Shown: in pieces, positions 3,945 to 40,419 of the stretch
How positions within the stretch are numbered: position 1 is the stretch's first letter
How the letters are laid out: every line of letters begins with the position of its first letter
Source: Sphaerochaeta globosa str. Buddy
GTDB lineage: Bacteria; Spirochaetota; Spirochaetia; Sphaerochaetales; Sphaerochaetaceae
Reading direction: 5' to 3'
DNA length: 64,000 bases
NCBI RefSeq assembly: GCF_000190435.1
Contig: NC_015152.1
Coordinates: 1,246,458-1,310,457 of the forward strand
Made by a program: the position numbers and the translations under genes
Notes under the pieces: generated by a model
What the model was told of the DNA's origin: nothing
Database searches by the model: none
Seen by the model: only the letters and a program-made list of their open reading frames with translations

Positions 3945-5786
3945 ATGATTACTCAGAATACAAAGATTCGGAACATCGCCATTATCGCACACGTCGACCA
4001 TGGTAAGACCACCTTGGTTGACGGGCTGTTCAGACAGAGCGGCTTGGTCAAGGATAGCGGCCAGGACCGAATTATGGACAGCGGCGCCATCGAGCGGGAG
4101 CGCGGTATTACCATCAGCGCCAAAAACTGCGCCATTTCATGGAAAGGCGTGAAGATCAATATCATCGATACTCCCGGACACGCCGATTTCGGTGGTGAAG
4201 TGGAACGGGGACTTTCGATGGTCGACGGAGTAGTATTGCTTGTCGATGCGGCAGAAGGCCCCCTTCCCCAAACACGATTTGTGCTTGAGAAAGCGCTCAG
4301 ACTCAATCTGAAGCCGATTATCATCATCAACAAAGTGGACCGTCAGGATGCCCGTGGAGAGGAAGTCCTCCAGGAAGTCTATGAACTGCTGCTGGAACTT
4401 GCCAATGATTCCAGCATGCTCGAGGTCCCCATTTTCTATGCCATCGGAAAGAGCGGTCGTTGCGGTCTCTCTCCGGATACCATGGGTGAAAACCTGCACC
4501 CCTTGATGGACTGCATTCTTTCCTATATCCCAGCTCCTGTGTTTGATGATGAACAGCCGTTCCAGATGCTGGTCAGTGATCTTTCCTACAGCGATTATCT
4601 GGGACGTCTTGCTGTCGGCAAGGTAGTCAATGGTAGTGCATCAATCTATGACAGCTTAGTCTGTGTTCAGGAAAATGACGTACATAAACCTCTGAGGGTC
4701 ACGAAATTGCAAACGTATAGTGGTCCTACCTTCTCGGAGACCACCCTGGTACAGAGTGGGGATATTATCGTGCTCAGCGGTGTTGAGGATGTTCATATCG
4801 GTGATACCATCTGTACAGCCGACTATCCCAAGGCTTTGGATCGGATTCACATCGATGAACCCACCGTTTCGATGCAGTTCTCCAAGAACATCAGTCCTCT
4901 TTCAGGTAAGGACGGGAACCAGGTAACATCTGCAAAAATCTGGGAACGTCTGCAGAAAGAAAGTCTGCGTAACGTTTCAATCCGGGTGGAGAGAAATGCC
5001 GATGACACCTTCAGTGTGAAGGGACGCGGTGAGTTCCAGCTCTCAATTATCGTTGAGCAAATGCGGCGGGAAGGGTTTGAACTCTGTGTCGGAAGACCCC
5101 GGACAATTTTCAGAACCGATGAGAATGGGAAAAAGACCGAACCGATAGAATTCTTGTATGTCGATTGTCCGGAAGAAAACAGTGGTACTGTCATGGATAA
5201 GCTTTCCAAACGAAAGGCCCAGATGAGGGATATCACCTATACAGGAAATGGAAGGGTGAAAATGAAGTTTGAGATTCCTGCACGTGGCTTGATCGGCTAT
5301 CATGACGAGTTCATGACCGACACCAGAGGCAATGGAATCATGAACACGTACATGAAGGGCTATGAGCTCTATAAGGGTGATTTCCCTGACCGTCTCAGCG
5401 GCTCATTGATCAGCGATCGAAGCGGCAACGCTGTAGCCTATGGGTTGTGGCAGCTCGAGGACCGTGGTAGATGGTTCATCGTTCCCGGTGATCCAATCTA
5501 TGAAGGCCAGGTAGTCGGTGAGCGCAACCGCGATGGGGATTTGCTGCTTAACCCGACCCGCACCAAGAAATTGACTAACATGCGTGCGAGCGGAAAAGAC
5601 GAAGCAGTGACGTTGACGCCGGTAGCCAAACCTACGTTGGAACAGGCGATCCAGTTCATCAAGGATGATGAATTGGTAGAGGTTACGCCTCTATCTATTC
5701 GGATGTGCAAGAAAATCCTTGATGGGCAACAGCGAAAAGTATTCGAGAATCGAGGCGAAATTCCTCAGTATTTGTTGAACAAGTAA
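3945..5786 (+). CDS. typA: ribosome-associated GTPase TypA/BipA
   Basis: 613-residue translational GTPase of the EF-G-like superfamily that binds the ribosome and assists assembly and translation under stress or cold. The G domain carries AHVDHGKT (residues 15-22), the ERERGITI switch I segment, DTPGHADF and NKVD. Later come the EF-G-like domains and the BipA-specific C-terminus (ARGLIGYHDEFMTDTRG). Length matches the family (about 600-615). An RBS (aaggaa) precedes the ATG. A strong bidirectional hairpin follows the stop. Confidence 0.97.
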   Translation: MITQNTKIRNIAIIAHVDHGKTTLVDGLFRQSGLVKDSGQDRIMDSGAIERERGITISAKNCAISWKGVKINIIDTPGHADFGGEVERGLSMVDGVVLLVDAAEGPLPQTRFVLEKALRLNLKPIIIINKVDRQDARGEEVLQEVYELLLELANDSSMLEVPIFYAIGKSGRCGLSPDTMGENLHPLMDCILSYIPAPVFDDEQPFQMLVSDLSYSDYLGRLAVGKVVNGSASIYDSLVCVQENDVHKPLRVTKLQTYSGPTFSETTLVQSGDIIVLSGVEDVHIGDTICTADYPKALDRIHIDEPTVSMQFSKNISPLSGKDGNQVTSAKIWERLQKESLRNVSIRVERNADDTFSVKGRGEFQLSIIVEQMRREGFELCVGRPRTIFRTDENGKKTEPIEFLYVDCPEENSGTVMDKLSKRKAQMRDITYTGNGRVKMKFEIPARGLIGYHDEFMTDTRGNGIMNTYMKGYELYKGDFPDRLSGSLISDRSGNAVAYGLWQLEDRGRWFIVPGDPIYEGQVVGERNRDGDLLLNPTRTKKLTNMRASGKDEAVTLTPVAKPTLEQAIQFIKDDELVEVTPLSIRMCKKILDGQQRKVFENRGEIPQYLLNK

Positions 5787-27526: not shown

Positions 27527-28270
27527 TCAGAGAATATGCTCCAAAAAAAGTTTGGTGCGTTCGTTCGTGGGATTGCTGAACATCTGATCGGGTTTGCCGA
27601 TCTCAACAATGTTTCCCTCATCCATGAAGACCACCTTGTCTGCGGCAGCCCTGGCGAATCCCATTTCATGGGTAACCAACAGCATCGTCATGCCGCTCTT
27701 GGCAAGCTTGAGCATGACATCCAGAACCTCCTTGATCATCTCCGGGTCCAATGCACTGGTCGGTTCATCAAAGAGCATTACTTTTGGTTGCATCGCCAAA
27801 GCCCGGGCGATCGCTACGCGCTGTTGTTGCCCTCCGGAGAGCTGGGGAGGGTAGACTTGGGCTTTTTCCTCAAGTCCGACCAACCTCAGCAAATCCATGG
27901 CTTGCTTCTCAGCTTCTTTTTTGGAGAGCTTCTTAACCTTAAGCGGAGCAAGGGTGATGTTCTCCATCACCGAAAGATGAGGAAAAAGGTTGAAGGATTG
28001 GAATACCATGCCTACTTCCTCACGAATTTTTCTGAGGTCGACATCGGGATCGGTCACCTCATCCTCATCGATGAAGATTTTTCCTCCGGTAGGATGTTCG
28101 AGTTTATTTACGCTGCGCAGCAGTGTGGATTTCCCACTGCCCGAAGGTCCGATGATAACCACAACCTCCCCGTGCTCAACCGTTAGGTTGGCATGTCTGA
28201 CAGCCTTCACCACGGTATGGTTGGTAGTAATATAATCTTTGGAGAGATCTTCAATGCGTATTCTAGCCAT
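27527..28270 (-). CDS. polar amino-acid ABC transporter ATP-binding protein (predicted arginine)
   Basis: 247-residue GlnQ/ArtP-like ATPase. Walker A is GPSGSGKS, the signature is [16 protein letters not shown], Walker B is [14 protein letters not shown] and the switch histidine is in VTHEMGFAR. The frame is open farther upstream, but homology starts at [11 protein letters not shown], at 28270. It overlaps the 3' end of the permease gene by 8 nt and is co-transcribed with it. Operators of ArgR type upstream of the permease and of both binding-protein genes suggest that arginine or a relative is the substrate. Confidence 0.93.
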
Positions 28271-29123
28271 TTTCGTGCAACCTTTCCTCCAGCATGCCAA
28301 CCAGGCGGGAGAGCAGGAGGGTGATGATGAGATAGATGAGGGCAACGACCAACATGGTCTCAAGCGAAAGGAAGGTTCTGGAGATATACTCCCTGCCTTT
28401 GCGCAGGATGTCGCTCAGTGCAATCGTGGAAACCAATGAGGAATCCTTCAGCATGGAGATGAACTCGTTGCCTATTGCCGGCAGGACGACCTTGATGGTC
28501 TGGGGAAGTATTACATACCGGAACGCCTGCGAGCGGGACAGCCCTAAAGCGATTGCGGCTTCCATCTGGCCTTTGGGAATAGCCTGAATGCCTGCTCGTA
28601 CAATTTCACCCATATAGGCGCCAAAGCAGATTGACAGGGCCACAACGGCTGCAATCATGCCTTCAATCTTGAAGAACCTTCCCATTGCGTAATAGATGAA
28701 GATCAACTGGACCAAAAGAGGGATGCCTCTGATAAGTTCGACATATACGCCGCTTACCATGTTGACCCATCTTTTCTTACTCACCGATCCTAGGCCGGTG
28801 ATGGTGCCGATGACCAAGGCCCCGATGATGGCAAAAATGGTTGCTTGGAAGGTTACCGGTGCACCCTTGATTGTTACCAGGAAAATATCCATGTACGGTT
28901 TGGGTTTGAAAATAACCAGTGCAGCAAGCAAAGCAATCGCACTGAAGAATGTAATTCTCCAAGAGTTGAGTATGTGCCCGTCGTCCTTGCGGGGGATGAG
29001 CACTCCATCAGTCATCTGGATGGTGAGAGGTTTCTTTTTTTGGGCATTGGGATCGACGGAAACTACTTTCTTTCGAACCGCTTGCAGTTTGTACTCGTCA
29101 ATATCAGTAGGTGTATGTTCCAT
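28263..29123 (-). CDS. polar amino-acid ABC transporter permease
   Basis: 286-residue HisM/GlnP-type permease. The first 70 residues are an unusual hydrophilic extension (rich in Lys and Asp) before the first helix; the family is usually about 220 residues. The EAA loop is seen at [36 protein letters not shown] segment is typical of the family. Only one permease is present, so it would act as a homodimer. Its own promoter (29160-29188) carries two ArgR-like boxes, and the ribosome binding site is weak. Confidence 0.92.
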
Positions 29124-29159: not shown

Positions 29160-29209
29160 GTACTACATAATTATACAGTTAAAGTCAAGCTATGATGCAT
29201 AATTATTCA
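29160..29209 (-). promoter_or_regulatory. promoter of the ABC permease with two ArgR-like boxes
   Basis: Minus-strand -35 TTGACT (29188-29183) and -10 TAGTAC (29165-29160). Inner box at 29164-29177 reads TGTATAATTATGTA on the minus strand. Outer box at 29196-29209 reads TGCATAATTATTCA on the plus strand, a full match to TGNAT-N4-ATNCA. Box starts are 32 bp apart. Confidence 0.65.
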
Positions 29210-29242
29210 AGCAATCCCAAGTTTCTTCCCTCCTAAATGTAA

Positions 29243-29264
29243 CAAGCCACCCGAAGGTGGCTTG
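29243..29264 (-). terminator. hairpin after binding-protein gene 1
   Basis: Perfect 9-bp stem CAAGCCACC-CGAA-GGTGGCTTG downstream of the gene ending at 29291. The minus-strand tail (TTACATTT) is only moderately T-rich, so read-through is possible. Confidence 0.55.
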
Positions 29265-29290
29265 CACTCGAAACAACGGAACTCAGATTA

Positions 29291-30073
29291 TTACAGGATG
29301 TTCCACTTCTTTTTCAGTTCGGCCATCTTGCCGCTCTCTTCAATCTGCTTCAGACCGTTGTTCACCAAATCAAGTACTTCCTTGTTTCCCTTGAGCATGG
29401 CGATGGCAATCGGTTCGGGATCTCCAAGGTCACTTGCACTTCCCGCCACCTTCAGTTTGCTGGCATAGTTGGGATTGGATAATACAAAGTCGCTTGCAAT
29501 GACACTGTCGGTGACCACAGCCTGCAGATTGCCGTTGAGCATATCCTCGATGGCAAAGCCAATCTCGTCATACGCCTTGATGGTAGCCTTGAAGGAAGGA
29601 TTCTGCTTCATGAAATCGTCGAGGAAAATATGTCCGGTGGTACCAAGCTGAACGCCGACGACCTTGCCGTTGAGGCTTGCGGTATTGGAGAGTGTTGTGT
29701 CTGCAATCGGTGCCAGGATAGCCTGGGTGATGATCATGATGGGAGTGGAGAAGTCCATGGTTGCCTTGCGTTCCTCGGTTACCGAAACACCGCTTGCCAC
29801 TGCATCGTAAGCACCGTTTGCGAGACCTGCAAAAATGCCTTCCCATGCTACGTTGCGGATGGTGATCTGTACATTGTTCACCTTTGCAATCTCATTGACC
29901 AGATCGATTTCAAAGCCGACGACATCCCCTTTCTCATCGACGAACTCGAGCGGAGGCCAAGCGCAGTTTGCTGCAAAGACGTACGATTTTGTGCTCTCTT
30001 TCTGCCCCTGGGCAAAAAGGAATGCAGAGCCTACGAGCAAAATGATCAGAGCGAGGGTTCCAAGCTTTTTCAT
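29291..30073 (-). CDS. amino-acid ABC transporter substrate-binding protein 1
   Basis: 260-residue periplasmic binding protein of family 3 (SBP_bac_3). The signal peptide ends near AFLFAQG. The mature protein starts with YVFAANCAWPPLEFVDEKGDVVGFEIDL, the family's opening pattern, and continues with VTEERKATMDFSTPI and a GVQLGTTGH loop. It is a clear paralogue of the protein encoded at 30249. AAGGAG precedes the ATG. Its promoter has the same two ArgR-like boxes as the permease. Confidence 0.93.
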   Translation of the reverse strand: MKKLGTLALIILLVGSAFLFAQGQKESTKSYVFAANCAWPPLEFVDEKGDVVGFEIDLVNEIAKVNNVQITIRNVAWEGIFAGLANGAYDAVASGVSVTEERKATMDFSTPIMIITQAILAPIADTTLSNTASLNGKVVGVQLGTTGHIFLDDFMKQNPSFKATIKAYDEIGFAIEDMLNGNLQAVVTDSVIASDFVLSNPNYASKLKVAGSASDLGDPEPIAIAMLKGNKEVLDLVNNGLKQIEESGKMAELKKKWNIL

Positions 30074-30101
30074 GGTAAAACTCCTTAATTTGGATATGCG
30101 T

Positions 30102-30151
30102 ATAATGCATACTTATACATTGAATGTCAACTATAAGAGAATAAATATGCA
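30102..30151 (-). promoter_or_regulatory. promoter of binding-protein gene 1 with two ArgR-like boxes
   Basis: Minus-strand -35 TTGACA (30130-30125), 17-nt spacer, -10 CATTAT (30107-30102). Inner box 30106-30119 (plus strand TGCATACTTATACA). Outer box 30138-30151 (plus strand AGAATAAATATGCA, one mismatch). Box starts are 32 bp apart and the outer box begins 8 nt beyond the -35 box. Confidence 0.65.
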
Positions 30152-30210
30152 TAAAAAATAGCATTATTTGAATATCTTTGAACAAAAATGCGGAATTTTG
30201 ACAGAAAAAA

Positions 30211-30228
30211 GGGGAGCAAAAGCTCCCC
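30211..30228 (-). terminator. terminator of binding-protein gene 2
   Basis: GGGGAGC-AAAA-GCTCCCC, 7-bp perfect stem. The minus strand continues with TTTTTTCTG. Confidence 0.85.
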
Positions 30229-30248
30229 TCATCCTGCACCTGCAGTAC

Positions 30249-30998
30249 TTACAGCAAATTCCACTTCTGCTTCAATGCGTCGAAGCTACCATCAGCCTTG
30301 GCAAGTTCGAGACCCTTGTTGATCAGATCAAGAAGGGTCTTGTTGCCCTTCTGAACAGCAATGGCGATATCCTCTTCGGTAAACGGAGCACCTGCAACCA
30401 TCAAGCGATTCTTATAGTTCTCATTGGCAAGGACAAAGTCACTTGCAATCAGGGAGTCACACACCGCTGCATCAACGTTGCCGTTCAACAGGTCTTCGAT
30501 GGCAAGCCCGATATCGTCATAGGCTTTTCTCTGAACAGGGTAGTTCTCCAAGGCAAAGTCACCGGTGGTGCCGATCTGTACGCCGATTTTCTTATTCGTG
30601 AGGTCGCCGATACCCTTTACCTTGGCGCTGTCGCTGCTTCGGATGATTACCACCTGACCGGCAGTAAGGATGGGAGTGGAAAAATCCATGGAAGCCTTGC
30701 GTTCTTCTGTCACGGTTACTCCACTGGCGACTCCATCATACGCCCCATTTGCCAGCCCTGCGAAAATTGTGTCCCAAGGGATATTCTTCACGCTCATCTG
30801 GGTGCCAACCTTCTCGCCGATAAGAGGCATCAGCTCGACTTCAAAGCCGGTGAGCTGCCCATTTTCCACAAATTCGAGGGGAGGCCAGGTAGCGTCGGAT
30901 GCGAAGATATATCCGCTTTTATCTTCTTTCTTTCCCTGTGCGAACATCAACGTGGTCGCCAGAGCGAGGATTGAGATGATCAGTAGTGTTTTTTTCAT
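30249..30998 (-). CDS. amino-acid ABC transporter substrate-binding protein 2
   Basis: 249-residue periplasmic binding protein, family 3, with signal peptide MKKTLLIISILALATTLMFA and mature start QGKKEDKSGYIFASDATWPPLEFVENGQLTGFEVELM. VTEERKASMDFSTPIL and IGVQIGTTGDFAL match its paralogue. The start at 30998 has AAGGAG; the frame is open 20 codons farther but those residues precede the signal peptide. It has its own promoter and terminator, so two binding proteins of likely different affinity or specificity feed one membrane complex. Confidence 0.93.
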   Translation of the reverse strand: MKKTLLIISILALATTLMFAQGKKEDKSGYIFASDATWPPLEFVENGQLTGFEVELMPLIGEKVGTQMSVKNIPWDTIFAGLANGAYDGVASGVTVTEERKASMDFSTPILTAGQVVIIRSSDSAKVKGIGDLTNKKIGVQIGTTGDFALENYPVQRKAYDDIGLAIEDLLNGNVDAAVCDSLIASDFVLANENYKNRLMVAGAPFTEEDIAIAVQKGNKTLLDLINKGLELAKADGSFDALKQKWNLL

Positions 30999-31029
30999 AA
31001 AAACTCCTTGTACGAGTGTCTTACAAGGC

Positions 31030-31079
31030 ATCATGCATACATATGCACTAAAAGTCAAGCAAAGGTGAATATCTATGCA
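31030..31079 (-). promoter_or_regulatory. promoter of binding-protein gene 2 with two ArgR-like boxes
   Basis: Minus-strand -35 TTGACT (31058-31053), 17-nt spacer, -10 CATGAT (31035-31030). Inner box 31034-31047 is TGCATACATATGCA, a perfect palindrome apart from its centre. Outer box 31066-31079 is TGAATATCTATGCA. The spacing of 32 bp is the same as in the other two promoters. Confidence 0.68.
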
Positions 31080-32885: not shown

Positions 32886-34823
32886 ATGGGCAAGACGCTG
32901 ACAGAAAAAATTCTTCTTTCACACGTGAAGGAGGGAACGCTTGAGACTGGAAAGCCGATAGGCATTCTCATCGACCAAACACTGACCCAGGATGCTACAG
33001 GCACGATGGCGTATCTCCAATTTGAAGCAATGGGCTTGGCCCGTGTGCAGAATGAACTGGCAGTAAGCTATGTCGACCACAATACCATTCAAGTCGGTTA
33101 TGAAAATGCCGATGACCATCGGTACCTGCAAACGGTAGCAGCCGCAAAAGGCGTAATTTTCTCCCGTCCGGGCAACGGCATCTGCCATCAGGTTCATTTG
33201 GAACGCTTCGGCAAACCCGGTAAGACCATGCTTGGAAGCGACAGCCATACTCCTACCGGAGGTGGCATCGGTATGATCGCCATCGGAGCCGGAGGCTTGG
33301 ATGTTGCAGTCGCCATGGCCGGTGGTCCCTTCCATCTCATCAGCCCCAAGGTTATCGAAATCAGGCTTACCGGAAAACTACGCCCTTGGGTGGCTGCAAA
33401 GGATGTAATCCTAACCGTTCTTGAACACTACGGGGTGAAAGGCAATGTGAATTGCATTTTCGAGTACACCGGGACAGGCGTTGCCTCTATGGAAGTGCCT
33501 GAGCGCGCCACCATCTGCAATATGGGAGCCGAGTGCGGAGTTACCACCAGTATTTTCCCTTCCGATGAGAAAACCAGGATCTTCCTCAAAGCCCAGGGCA
33601 GGGAAGAGGACTGGGTTGCTTTATCTAGCGATGAGGATGCCTCCTACGACGGCCTTTTTGAGATCGACCTATCGACGCTTGAACCCAAAATGGCTTGTCC
33701 GCATTCACCGGGAAACATTGAGAAGGTTTCCAAGCTTGCCGGCAAGCGTGTCGAGCAGGTTCTTATCGGTTCCTGCACCAACTCAAGCTATGCAGACATG
33801 AAGAAGGTAGCCGATATTTTGGATGGCCACACGGTAGCAGAGCATGTGAGTCTGGGTATTGCACCCGGAAGCCGCGAGGTACTGTTGATGCTCAGCAAAG
33901 ACGGCTCGTTGGGCAAGTTCATCCAAAGTGGTGCACGCATTCTCGAAAGTGCCTGTGGGTTTTGCATCGGCAACCATCAGAGCCCCGGAACCGAAGGGGT
34001 GAGCTTGAGGACAAGCAACCGAAACTTCGAAGGACGAAGCGGCACCAAGAGTGGACAAGTCTACCTTGTAAGTCCCGAGACTGCTGCCTTGGCGGCAATT
34101 ACCGGGGTGTTCACCGACCCGCTCAGTGATCACGGTATTCCTTACCCGAAAGTAGTGCATCCGACCCAATTTCTGGTTGATGACTCCATGATTGTATTTC
34201 CCCCAGAGGATGGCTCGAAGGTGGAAATCTTCCGCGGTCCCAATATCGGCGAACCTCCCAAGAATACTGCATTGAAAGAGCATTTGGAGGGGTACGTAAC
34301 CATCAAGGTTGGGGACAAAATCACCACGGACCATATTATGCCGGCGGGGAGTCGACTCAAGTACCGCTCCAATATTCCCGTATACTCCAAGTATGTCTTT
34401 GAACCGATCGATGAACACTTCAGTCAGCGATGTACCGAAAATCAGGACAGGGGCAAGGACAACTTCATTGTTGCCGGTTCTTCGTACGGCCAAGGTTCCA
34501 GTCGTGAACATGCCGCCATTTGTCCGATGTACCTGGGAGTGAAGGCAGTCATCGCTGTTTCGATCGAGCGCATCCACCAGAACAATCTCTGCAACTTCGG
34601 CATCATTCCGCTTACCTTCCTCCATGAAGAGGATTATGCAAAATTTGAAGCCAACGATGAATTGCTGCTGGAAAACGTGAAAGAGCAAATCAAAGGCGGT
34701 GAAGTGGTACTGAAAAACAAGACAAGGAGTACCGAGATCACCCTCTGTTGCGATATCACCGATGAACAGCGCAGCATGCTCATCAGCGGTGGGTTGCTCA
34801 ACATTTTGAAGGAGAGAGCTTGA
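32886..34823 (+). CDS. aconitate hydratase
   Basis: 645-residue [4Fe-4S] aconitase of the shorter, mitochondrial-like bacterial type, converting citrate to isocitrate. Cluster cysteines are in [10 protein letters not shown] and [12 protein letters not shown]. Other conserved segments are [38 protein letters not shown] and [14 protein letters not shown] with active-site Ser/Arg. The stop overlaps the start of the isocitrate dehydrogenase gene (TGATG), which makes the two an obvious pathway operon. Whether to call it acnA is a matter of naming, so no symbol is given. Confidence 0.95.
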
Positions 34824-36052
34824 TGGACAAAGCGATTAGCATAGAAAACGGTAAGCTTTCGGTACCCGATCACGTAACCATTCCCTGTATTGAAGGCGAT
34901 GGTGTCGGTCCTGAGATCACCAGCGTCATGAAAAACGTTGTCGACCAAGCTGTTCAAAAAGCTTACCAGGGAAGGCGCTCGATCCAATTCATCGAAGTAC
35001 TGGCAGGCCAAAAAGCCAAGGATACCGTAGGCACCTACCTCCCCGAAGAGACTATGGAAGCAGTCAATACCTATAAGGTAGCTATCAAGGGGCCGCTTAC
35101 CACCCCGGTCGGCAAGGGTATCAGATCGCTGAATGTAACGTTGCGCCAAAGTCTGGACCTCTATGTATGCCTGAGGCCGGTGGAATATTTTGCCGGTGTT
35201 CCCTCACCAGTGAAACACCCTGAGAAGGTCGATATGGTGGTATTCCGTGAGAATACTGAGGATATTTACGCCGGTATCGAGTGGGAGGCGGGAAGCAGTG
35301 GTGTACAGAAGGTTCTGAACTTTCTTACCGATGAGATGGGGGTGAAAAACATTCGCTTTCCCAACAGCAGTGCACTGGGCATAAAGCCCGTAAGCCGTGA
35401 GGGCAGTGAACGTTTGATCCGCTCGGCGATTACCTATGCCCTTGAACACAACCGACGCAATGTTACGCTGGTGCACAAGGGTAACATTATGAAGTTTACA
35501 GAAGGAGGGTTCAACGCCTGGGGGTATGAGCTTGCCAAACGTGAGTTTGGTGCCCAGGAGGATGCGAAGAAACGCGTATTCATTCCCCGAACAGAGGGAG
35601 AACCTTTATATATCCAGGACTGCATCTGTGATGCCTTTTTACAGAATATCCTGCTCAAGCCTGAGGCCTACGATGTGATAGCCACCTTGAACCTCAACGG
35701 TGACTATGTCTCCGATGCCTTGGCGGCGGAAGTAGGGGGGATCGGTATTGCTCCAGGGGCAAATATCAATTATGACAATGGGTATGCAATTTTTGAAGCT
35801 ACTCACGGGACAGCCCCCGATATTGCAGGCAAAGACTTGGTCAACCCGCTCTCCCTGGTCCTTTCGGCAGTGATGATGCTCAATTATCTGGGATGGGATG
35901 AAGCTGCTTCCCTGATCAAGTGTGCGGTTGGAAAGGCCATTGAGGCTGGCGCTGTAACGTCTGATTTCTACCAAGCGATGGTCAAGGAAGGAAGGGCCTG
36001 CACCCAGTTGGGGACGCAAGCTTTCGGCCAAAGGTTGGTTGCGTTACTCTAA
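34823..36052 (+). CDS. icd: isocitrate dehydrogenase, NAD-type cofactor residues
   Basis: 409-residue member of the bacterial type I isocitrate dehydrogenases, making 2-oxoglutarate and CO2. The substrate site has [12 protein letters not shown] with the serine equivalent to E. coli Ser113, and [14 protein letters not shown] follows. At the cofactor pocket E. coli HGTAPKY becomes HGTAPDI: Asp333 and Ile334 replace Lys344 and Tyr345, which in the E. coli enzyme bind the NADP phosphate. Downstream, E. coli VTYDFE is VTSDFY. This is the pattern of NAD-using enzymes. ATG 34823 overlaps the aconitase stop and has GGAGAG upstream. Confidence 0.93.
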
Positions 36053-39047: not shown

Positions 39048-40268
39048 CTAGGAATCCCGCTTGGCACTTGCCATAAGGCGGATGGCGTTGATGTTGATGA
39101 ATCCCTTACAGTCCACCGGTTGGTATCCTCCAGCCTTATCCATGGAACCGAGTGCCTCATTGTAGAGGGAAACGGGGCTCGAGATTCCGGCGAAGATGAC
39201 ATTGCCCTTGTACAGAACAACCTTGCTGGTTCCGCTGACATTCTTTTGGCTCTGCTCGAAGGCGGCAGTAAGCATTTTGAACTCAGGTGCTCCCCAGTAA
39301 CCATTGTAAATGAGCTCGGCATATTTGCTGATGAGGCCGTCACGCAGGTGCATCACTTCCTTATCCATGGTTATGCCTTCGAGGTTGTGATGGGCTTTCC
39401 ACAGTATTTCGCAACCAGGAGTCTCGTACACACCGCGGCTCTTGATGCCGATGTAGCGGTTTTCAACCATGTCAACGCGACCGATGGCATTGTCGTGCCC
39501 GAGCTTGTTCAGATAGAGAATCATCTCTAGCGGATCGGTAACCACAGTTTTGTCTTCCTCATTGGTCACAGAGACAGGAATTCCATCCTTGAACTCAAAG
39601 GTGAGTAGGGTTTCTTTGTCATTGGCTTTCTGGGGGCTGAGGGTCAAACTGAACACATCCTCTTCGCATCTCTTGGAGGGATCTTCCAAAATCCCTGCTT
39701 CATGACTGATGTGGATGAGATTCTCATCCTCACTGTACGGCTTTTTTGTGGAAGCCTTGATTGGGATGCCATATTTCTGGGCATAGGCGATCATATCGCT
39801 TCTTCCCTCAAACTGACTGAGCCATTCAGGGTCTTTCCAAGGGCTGATGATTTTGACTTCGGGCATGTGCATGTAATAGCCGAACTCAAAGCGAACCTGG
39901 TCGTTGCCCTTGCCGGTAGCACCATGTGCTACATAGACGGTCCCTTCCTTGCGGGCGATTTCAATCTGGCGTTTAGCGATGATCGGCCGGGCCAAGGAAG
40001 TCCCCAACATATAGGTACCTTCATAGATGGTATTTGCTTTCAAGGCAGGGAAAATATAGTCGGTTACCAATTCTTTGCGCAGGTCCTCAACATAGACCTT
40101 GGAAGCGCCTGTGGCCAGTGCCTTTTTCTCGATAGCGGCAAAATCCTCATTCTGCCCGACGTTGGCAACATAGGCGATGACGTCAAAGCCTTTATTGGCC
40201 AACCACTTGAGGATGACAGAGGTGTCCAGCCCTCCGCTATACGCAAGAATGATTTTTTCCTTGTTCAT
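39048..40268 (-). CDS. argG: argininosuccinate synthase
   Basis: 406-residue ATP-dependent ligase joining citrulline and aspartate. The N-type ATP-pyrophosphatase loop is [11 protein letters not shown]. Other conserved parts are [23 protein letters not shown] and [20 protein letters not shown] precedes the ATG. Upstream is a TTGTCA-17-TACACT promoter with ArgR-like boxes. No other arginine biosynthesis gene is adjacent. Confidence 0.97.
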
Positions 40269-40306: not shown

Positions 40307-40419
40307 GTGTAGTAAACAGCGATAAGAATGACAAGAGGTTTTTGCATAAATATTCTATAAATGGTTGAAATATGCAGTTTTATCAGAAAATATTCCTAAT
40401 AATCATGAATTAATATTCA
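40307..40419 (-). promoter_or_regulatory. argG: argG promoter with two ArgR-like boxes
   Basis: Minus-strand -35 TTGTCA (40334-40329), 17-nt spacer, -10 TACACT (40312-40307). Box 1 at 40343-40356 (TGCATAAATATTCT) begins 8 nt beyond the -35, the same offset as the outer boxes of the three ABC promoters. Box 2 at 40406-40419 is TGAATTAATATTCA, a near-ideal symmetric ARG box, 63 bp farther out. Confidence 0.65.

Follow-up and report, generated by a model that had tools for sequence, protein, structure and literature searches.

What controls the amino-acid transporter genes of this locus, and why do three of their promoters share one and the same arrangement of palindromes? The window, i.e. the whole 64,000-nucleotide stretch of DNA that was analysed, corresponds to positions 1246458-1310457 of the 3.3-Mb chromosome of Sphaerochaeta globosa str. 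Buddy. A polar-amino-acid ABC transporter is encoded in it on the minus strand, by genes for an ATP-binding subunit, a permease and two separate substrate-binding proteins:

27527..28270, minus strand: ATP-binding subunit of the polar-amino-acid ABC transporter (GlnQ/TcyN/ArtP-type NCBIfam matches, all below the equivalog cut-offs)
28263..29123, minus strand, ATG at 29123: permease subunit (TIGR01726 above cut-off), downstream of the first box pair
29291..30073, minus strand, ATG at 30073: substrate-binding protein 1 (best NCBIfam match TIGR01096, Lys/Arg/Orn binding, below cut-off), downstream of the second box pair
30249..30998, minus strand, ATG at 30998: substrate-binding protein 2 (best NCBIfam matches cystine and Lys/Arg/Orn binding, below cut-off), downstream of the third box pair

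The permease and the two binding proteins each have a promoter of their own, and each of these promoters carries two palindromes, which we name here after the reading that we favor below:

29196..29209, minus strand: outer (upstream) putative ARG box of the permease promoter (TGCATAATTATTCA, exact match), kept in orthologous promoters
29183..29188, minus strand: -35 element TTGACT of the permease promoter, assigned from sequence; it stands between the two boxes, and 53 related promoters have a -35 element equally far from the inner box
29164..29177, minus strand: inner putative ARG box of the permease promoter (TACATAATTATACA, one mismatch); the pair is kept in orthologues
30138..30151, minus strand: outer putative ARG box of the binding-protein-1 promoter (AGAATAAATATGCA, one mismatch), conserved
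30125..30130, minus strand: -35 element TTGACA of the binding-protein-1 promoter, assigned from sequence, position conserved
30106..30119, minus strand: inner putative ARG box of the binding-protein-1 promoter (TGCATACTTATACA, exact match)
31066..31079, minus strand: outer putative ARG box of the binding-protein-2 promoter (TGAATATCTATGCA, exact match)
31053..31058, minus strand: -35 element TTGACT of the binding-protein-2 promoter, assigned from sequence, position conserved
31034..31047, minus strand: inner putative ARG box of the binding-protein-2 promoter (TGCATACATATGCA, exact match)

The six palindromes start at 29164, 29196, 30106, 30138, 31034 and 31066, and the two starts of a pair are 32 bp apart at all three promoters. 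The first-pass annotation had described them as paired repeats of the form TGNAT-N4-ATNCA; its coordinates and its 32-bp spacing stand, while the exact form (TGNATNNNNATNCA) is found in four of the six boxes (29196, 30106, 31034 and 31066), those at 29164 and 30138 each departing from it by one mismatch. In the direction of transcription all three promoters read outer box, 7 nt, TTGAC(T/A), 5 nt, inner box; the 7-nt gap upstream of the -35 element matches the annotation's placing of the outer box as beginning 8 nt past it. With a 17-bp spacer the -10 elements would be TAGTAC (permease; weak, 3/6), CATTAT (binding protein 1) and CATGAT (binding protein 2). The inner box, as the annotation had also noted, overlaps both the spacer and the -10 element: it lies inside the spacer and reaches two bases into the -10 element in each of the three promoters.

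We scanned the genome for the box pair, allowing up to three mismatches. At 0-1 mismatch the pair was found only at the three window promoters; the other matches were few and all at three mismatches, and a reversed control pattern gave 1-2. A composite pattern (box-N7-TTGAC-N6-box, one mismatch allowed) was then scanned over 296 Spirochaetota genomes, where it occurred in only seven places, against none for the control pattern. Six of the seven are in the Sphaerochaetaceae, i.e. the three promoters described here and three orthologous transporter promoters in other genera (two of the permease, one of a binding protein). The seventh, with one mismatch, lies in another Spirochaetota family, at positions 1500-1546 of its stretch, upstream of a gene that reads in sequence as citrate synthase-like.

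We collected the upstream regions of the permease, binding-protein, argC, argF, argG and argR genes from related genomes and dereplicated them to 245 promoters, accepting boxes that matched at 8/10 or better and counting pairs at 17-70 bp. These promoters contained 432 boxes, compared with 57 in shuffled promoters (about eightfold), and 260 box pairs, compared with 3.5. Shuffled sequences were the cleaner control, as permuted palindromes partly match true sites when they are box-like. The boxes could in principle be chance palindromes, as the region is A/T-rich and single boxes are found across the genome. Such an origin is vanishingly improbable and is ruled out by the genome pair scan together with the shuffled-promoter counts, since the paired geometry is unique to three promoters in 3.3 Mb and is kept in dozens of species; the first-pass annotation had likewise judged it hard to explain by chance.

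The spacings in the relatives were far from evenly spread. They cluster at 20-23, 30-33, 40-43, 50-52 and 61-63 bp, i.e. at whole helical turns, with few between, and 31-33 bp is the commonest. A Rayleigh analysis at a period of 10.5 bp gave R = 0.67 when all 260 pairs were pooled, 0.78 for the transporter promoters and 0.60 for the 136 pairs of arg-gene promoters. The common ancestry of orthologous promoters inflates these values, but arg and transporter genes, and likewise the differing spacings, are in part independent of one another. The annotation had put the distance between the boxes at about three helical turns, and the whole-turn phasing over the 245 promoters supports a position of both boxes on the same face of the helix. 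A phased pair was present within 200 bp upstream of argC in 25 of 28 relatives, of argG in 21 of 30, of binding protein 1 in 27 of 31, of binding protein 2 in 28 of 56 and of the permease in 35 of 74. For argF it was present in 8 of 31, and boxes are often absent there even where argR is present. Of the 126 phased pairs, 53 have a -35 element that begins exactly 11 nt ahead of the inner box whatever the outer spacing; counted from the start of the outer box, it lies 20, 21 or 22 nt further on at spacings of 31, 32 or 33 bp, respectively. Position 13 of the box is T in 21 of 57 inner boxes and in no outer box, as would be expected if the end of the inner box also starts the -10 element.

The half-sites had been said to fit the ARG box bound by ArgR, and the consensus agrees with published ARG boxes. 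These are AWTGCATRWWYATGCAWT in Streptomyces and TNTGAATWWWWATTCANW in E. coli (PMC4865122); the box found here, TGCATANNTATGCA, closely resembles them and is nearest, indeed nearly identical, to the Streptomyces form. The genome also contains the regulator that such boxes call for, at one locus: a single argR-family gene (one PF02863 match, 85.9 bits), whose product matches both PF01316 (DNA-binding) and PF02863 (arginine-binding) above the Pfam cut-offs and scores 129.6 bits against TIGR01529 (argR_whole), just under the cut-off of 130.45. The protein aligns over most of its length to solved ArgR/AhrC structures, among which it is closest in sequence to Bacillus ArgR/AhrC. The alignment includes the SRD and GDDT stretches, which belong to the helix-turn-helix of ArgR and to its arginine site, respectively. 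Across the family argR was detected in 116 of 119 genomes, including all 73 of good quality, and the three genomes without a detectable copy are all incomplete (72-87% complete). We found no report on ArgR in spirochaetes in the collection of open papers that was searched, although one may exist elsewhere; the sole Sphaerochaeta match for 'ArgR' was to ArgRS, a tRNA synthetase.

If ArgR acts at these boxes, arginine biosynthesis genes should carry them as well. The regulon list was drawn up by a pattern scan with the tight box NGNATAWNTATNCA and from selected stretches, and the names argC, argF, argG and argR rest on NCBIfam matches. The tight box has 32 distinct sites in the genome, five of them in the three window promoters and three more in the promoters of argC, argF and argG; most of the other 24 are not at arginine genes. 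About 0.01 sites would be expected by chance in the promoters of the four arg genes, and the excess (three observed) would stay far above chance even with a tenfold higher density of sites in A/T-rich intergenic DNA. The enrichment for arginine genes that the annotation had proposed as a check is present at the arg promoters. Of the two outcomes that it had named as fatal to its reading, a genome lacking an ArgR homologue and matches without enrichment for arginine genes, neither was obtained. Upstream of argC there are three boxes with spacings of 22 and 41 bp (63 bp overall), and argF has a box pair 31 bp apart with the -35 element TTGACA between and the -10 element TACAAT directly after the inner box. 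The argR gene has an upstream pair of its own, weaker and 21 bp apart. The features of argG, which lies within the window, are as follows:

39048..40268, minus strand: argG, argininosuccinate synthase (TIGR00032, 458 bits, above cut-off)
40343..40356, minus strand: putative ARG box in the argG promoter region (TGCATAAATATTCT); phased boxes are found in the argG promoters of relatives
40406..40419, minus strand: a second putative ARG box of argG, six turns (63 bp) farther upstream (TGAATTAATATTCA, exact match)

Boxes were also seen at genes of other kinds. A perfect box, TGCATACTTATGCA, stands directly upstream of the purine gene purE (chromosome position 2338110), which is not clearly tied to arginine; another, TGCATATTTATGCA (position 1890987), is flanked by the genes of a polyamine-type binding protein and of a sodium:solute symporter (PF00474, SSF). 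A single box, TGTATATTTATACA, is located just upstream of the ribosome-binding site of gdhA, the gene for NADP-glutamate dehydrogenase (position 2120921), and possibly links glutamate supply to ArgR. A second polar-amino-acid ABC operon, with a Lys/Arg/Orn-type binding protein, has one strong box in its promoter region (position 1010263). Additional boxes (stretch positions 4698 and 7289) lie near a methionine-type ABC transporter cluster, so named from reading its sequence, that adjoins argF.

Our main reading is that the six palindromes are operators of the chromosomal ArgR, which would repress with arginine here and also at argC, argF, argG and probably argR; we give this a probability of about 0.9. 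Sequence evidence strongly supports the assignment of the boxes to ArgR, and the remaining elements, i.e. ArgR binding, a need for arginine, cooperativity, repression and an arginine-type transport substrate, are what we would infer from it, with repression, arginine dependence and cooperation predicted by analogy with the ArgR family. Counting against this reading are the ArgR score just under the TIGR01529 cut-off, the sparse argF boxes in relatives and the strong single boxes at purE and the SSF symporter. The last of these, which have no clear arginine role, could instead mean that another amino-acid regulator with a similar palindrome acts at the boxes, but since the box matches the published ARG box, the arginine biosynthesis genes carry it and nearly every genome of the family has argR, we regard such a regulator as very improbable.

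Operation of the boxes by ArgR would proceed as follows. At high arginine levels, arginine-bound ArgR would occupy the inner box, covering the spacer and the first two bases of the -10 element, and would also grip the outer box, which lies on the same helix face three turns farther upstream, so that the -35 element would be enclosed between them. RNA polymerase would thereby be excluded, and less permease and less of both binding proteins would be made; the same repressor would act on argC, argF, argG and probably argR. The inner box would be set by the promoter and the outer box would be free to move by whole turns.

What the 32-bp spacing says about mechanism can be read in several ways. One is that these are ArgR sites whose spacing reflects placement relative to RNA polymerase alone, with no contact between ArgR molecules. 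The locking of the inner box 11 nt from the -35 element in 53 promoters does indicate that promoter geometry constrains the inner box, but the outer box moves in whole-turn jumps (31-33 or 41-43 bp in transporter promoters; 22, 41, 32 and 63 bp at argC/argG), with few positions between, and on this evidence we consider placement alone unlikely. The whole-turn shifts argue for contact through protein, with either one hexamer bridging the boxes or two hexamers touching. Alternatively, one promoter might have been duplicated along with its gene, in which case the identical spacing would be inherited and would tell little of mechanism. Binding proteins 1 and 2 are paralogues and their inter-box sequences have TTGAC and A/T-rich flanks in common, as duplication would predict. 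The permease, however, is not paralogous to these two proteins; the boxes also precede unrelated genes, namely argG and argF, the latter with 31 bp and the -35 element in the same place; and the phasing persists in the arg-gene promoters alone (the 136 pairs above), which makes duplication a rather doubtful explanation. Beyond the assignment of the boxes to ArgR, we considered a specific operator design for the Sphaerochaetaceae. In this design the core promoter would fix the place of the inner box, which would also supply part of the -10 element, the outer box could lie two, three, four or six turns off, and one or two hexamers would span the -35 element by bending or looping the short stretch of DNA, forming a three-turn 'sandwich' at promoters such as those described here. 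We put this design at roughly even odds.

The putative ArgR boxes hint at arginine, or an amino acid related to it, as the substrate of the ABC transporter. The permease has relatives of 80-96% identity among Sphaerochaeta and other Spirochaetales genomes, and every equivalog NCBIfam match of both binding proteins is below cut-off. Compared with solved structures, binding protein 1 shows likeness to AncQR and ArtJ and binding protein 2 has AncQR as its best match; AncQR is an ancestral Gln/Arg binder. At a position that is usually part of the ligand site in this fold, binding protein 1 has Asn (AANCAW), while ArtJ (TDAAF) and binding protein 2 (SDATW) have Asp; the substrates of the two binding proteins may accordingly not be the same. 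Adjoining the transporter locus, at 32886-36052, are aconitase-like and isocitrate-dehydrogenase-like genes, named by sequence reading only, whose products both lead to 2-oxoglutarate and from there to glutamate and arginine.

In E. coli, ArgR is a hexameric, arginine-dependent repressor that acts at paired boxes of the TGAATN4ATTCA type on one face of the DNA, and at artJ, artPIQM, hisJ and the arginine biosynthesis genes paired boxes likewise overlap the promoters of biosynthesis and transport genes (PMC6640053). In the E. coli pairs, however, a gap of 3 bp (2 bp in argR) separates two 18-bp boxes, whose starts are thus 20-21 bp apart, whereas the spacing here is mostly 31-33 bp with the -35 element between (PMC6640053; PMC3293853). 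The 2-3-bp gap of E. coli is absent from the window promoters, and spacings of 21-22 bp occur at argR and within the argC set. Adjacent boxes 2 bp apart are also found in the argC operon of S. clavuligerus and are kept at argC, argG, arcB and argH of S. coelicolor (PMC3293853). A closer parallel is B. subtilis argC, where two promoter-region boxes for AhrC, also a hexameric regulator, are likewise wider apart than in E. coli (PMC3293853). Their gap is 11 bp, compared with 18 bp between the 14-bp cores here (14 bp when 18-bp boxes are counted), and B. subtilis argC has a third box in its coding region, the comparison here being one of promoter regions (PMC3293853). As judged from sequence, the Sphaerochaeta operators appear to fit all of the testable defining features of an ArgR regulon and to depart only in their spacing and in the -35 element between the boxes, which points to a known kind of control with a variant operator geometry.

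These results bring the Sphaerochaetaceae into the range of the ArgR regulon and supply a clear list of its genes there. They also offer, among the operators of a single repressor, a natural series of spacings (about 21, 32, 42 and 63 bp) on which the bridging reach of the ArgR hexamer could be probed. If true, the three-turn 'sandwich' would be a form of ArgR repression unlike the adjacent-box form of E. coli and Streptomyces.
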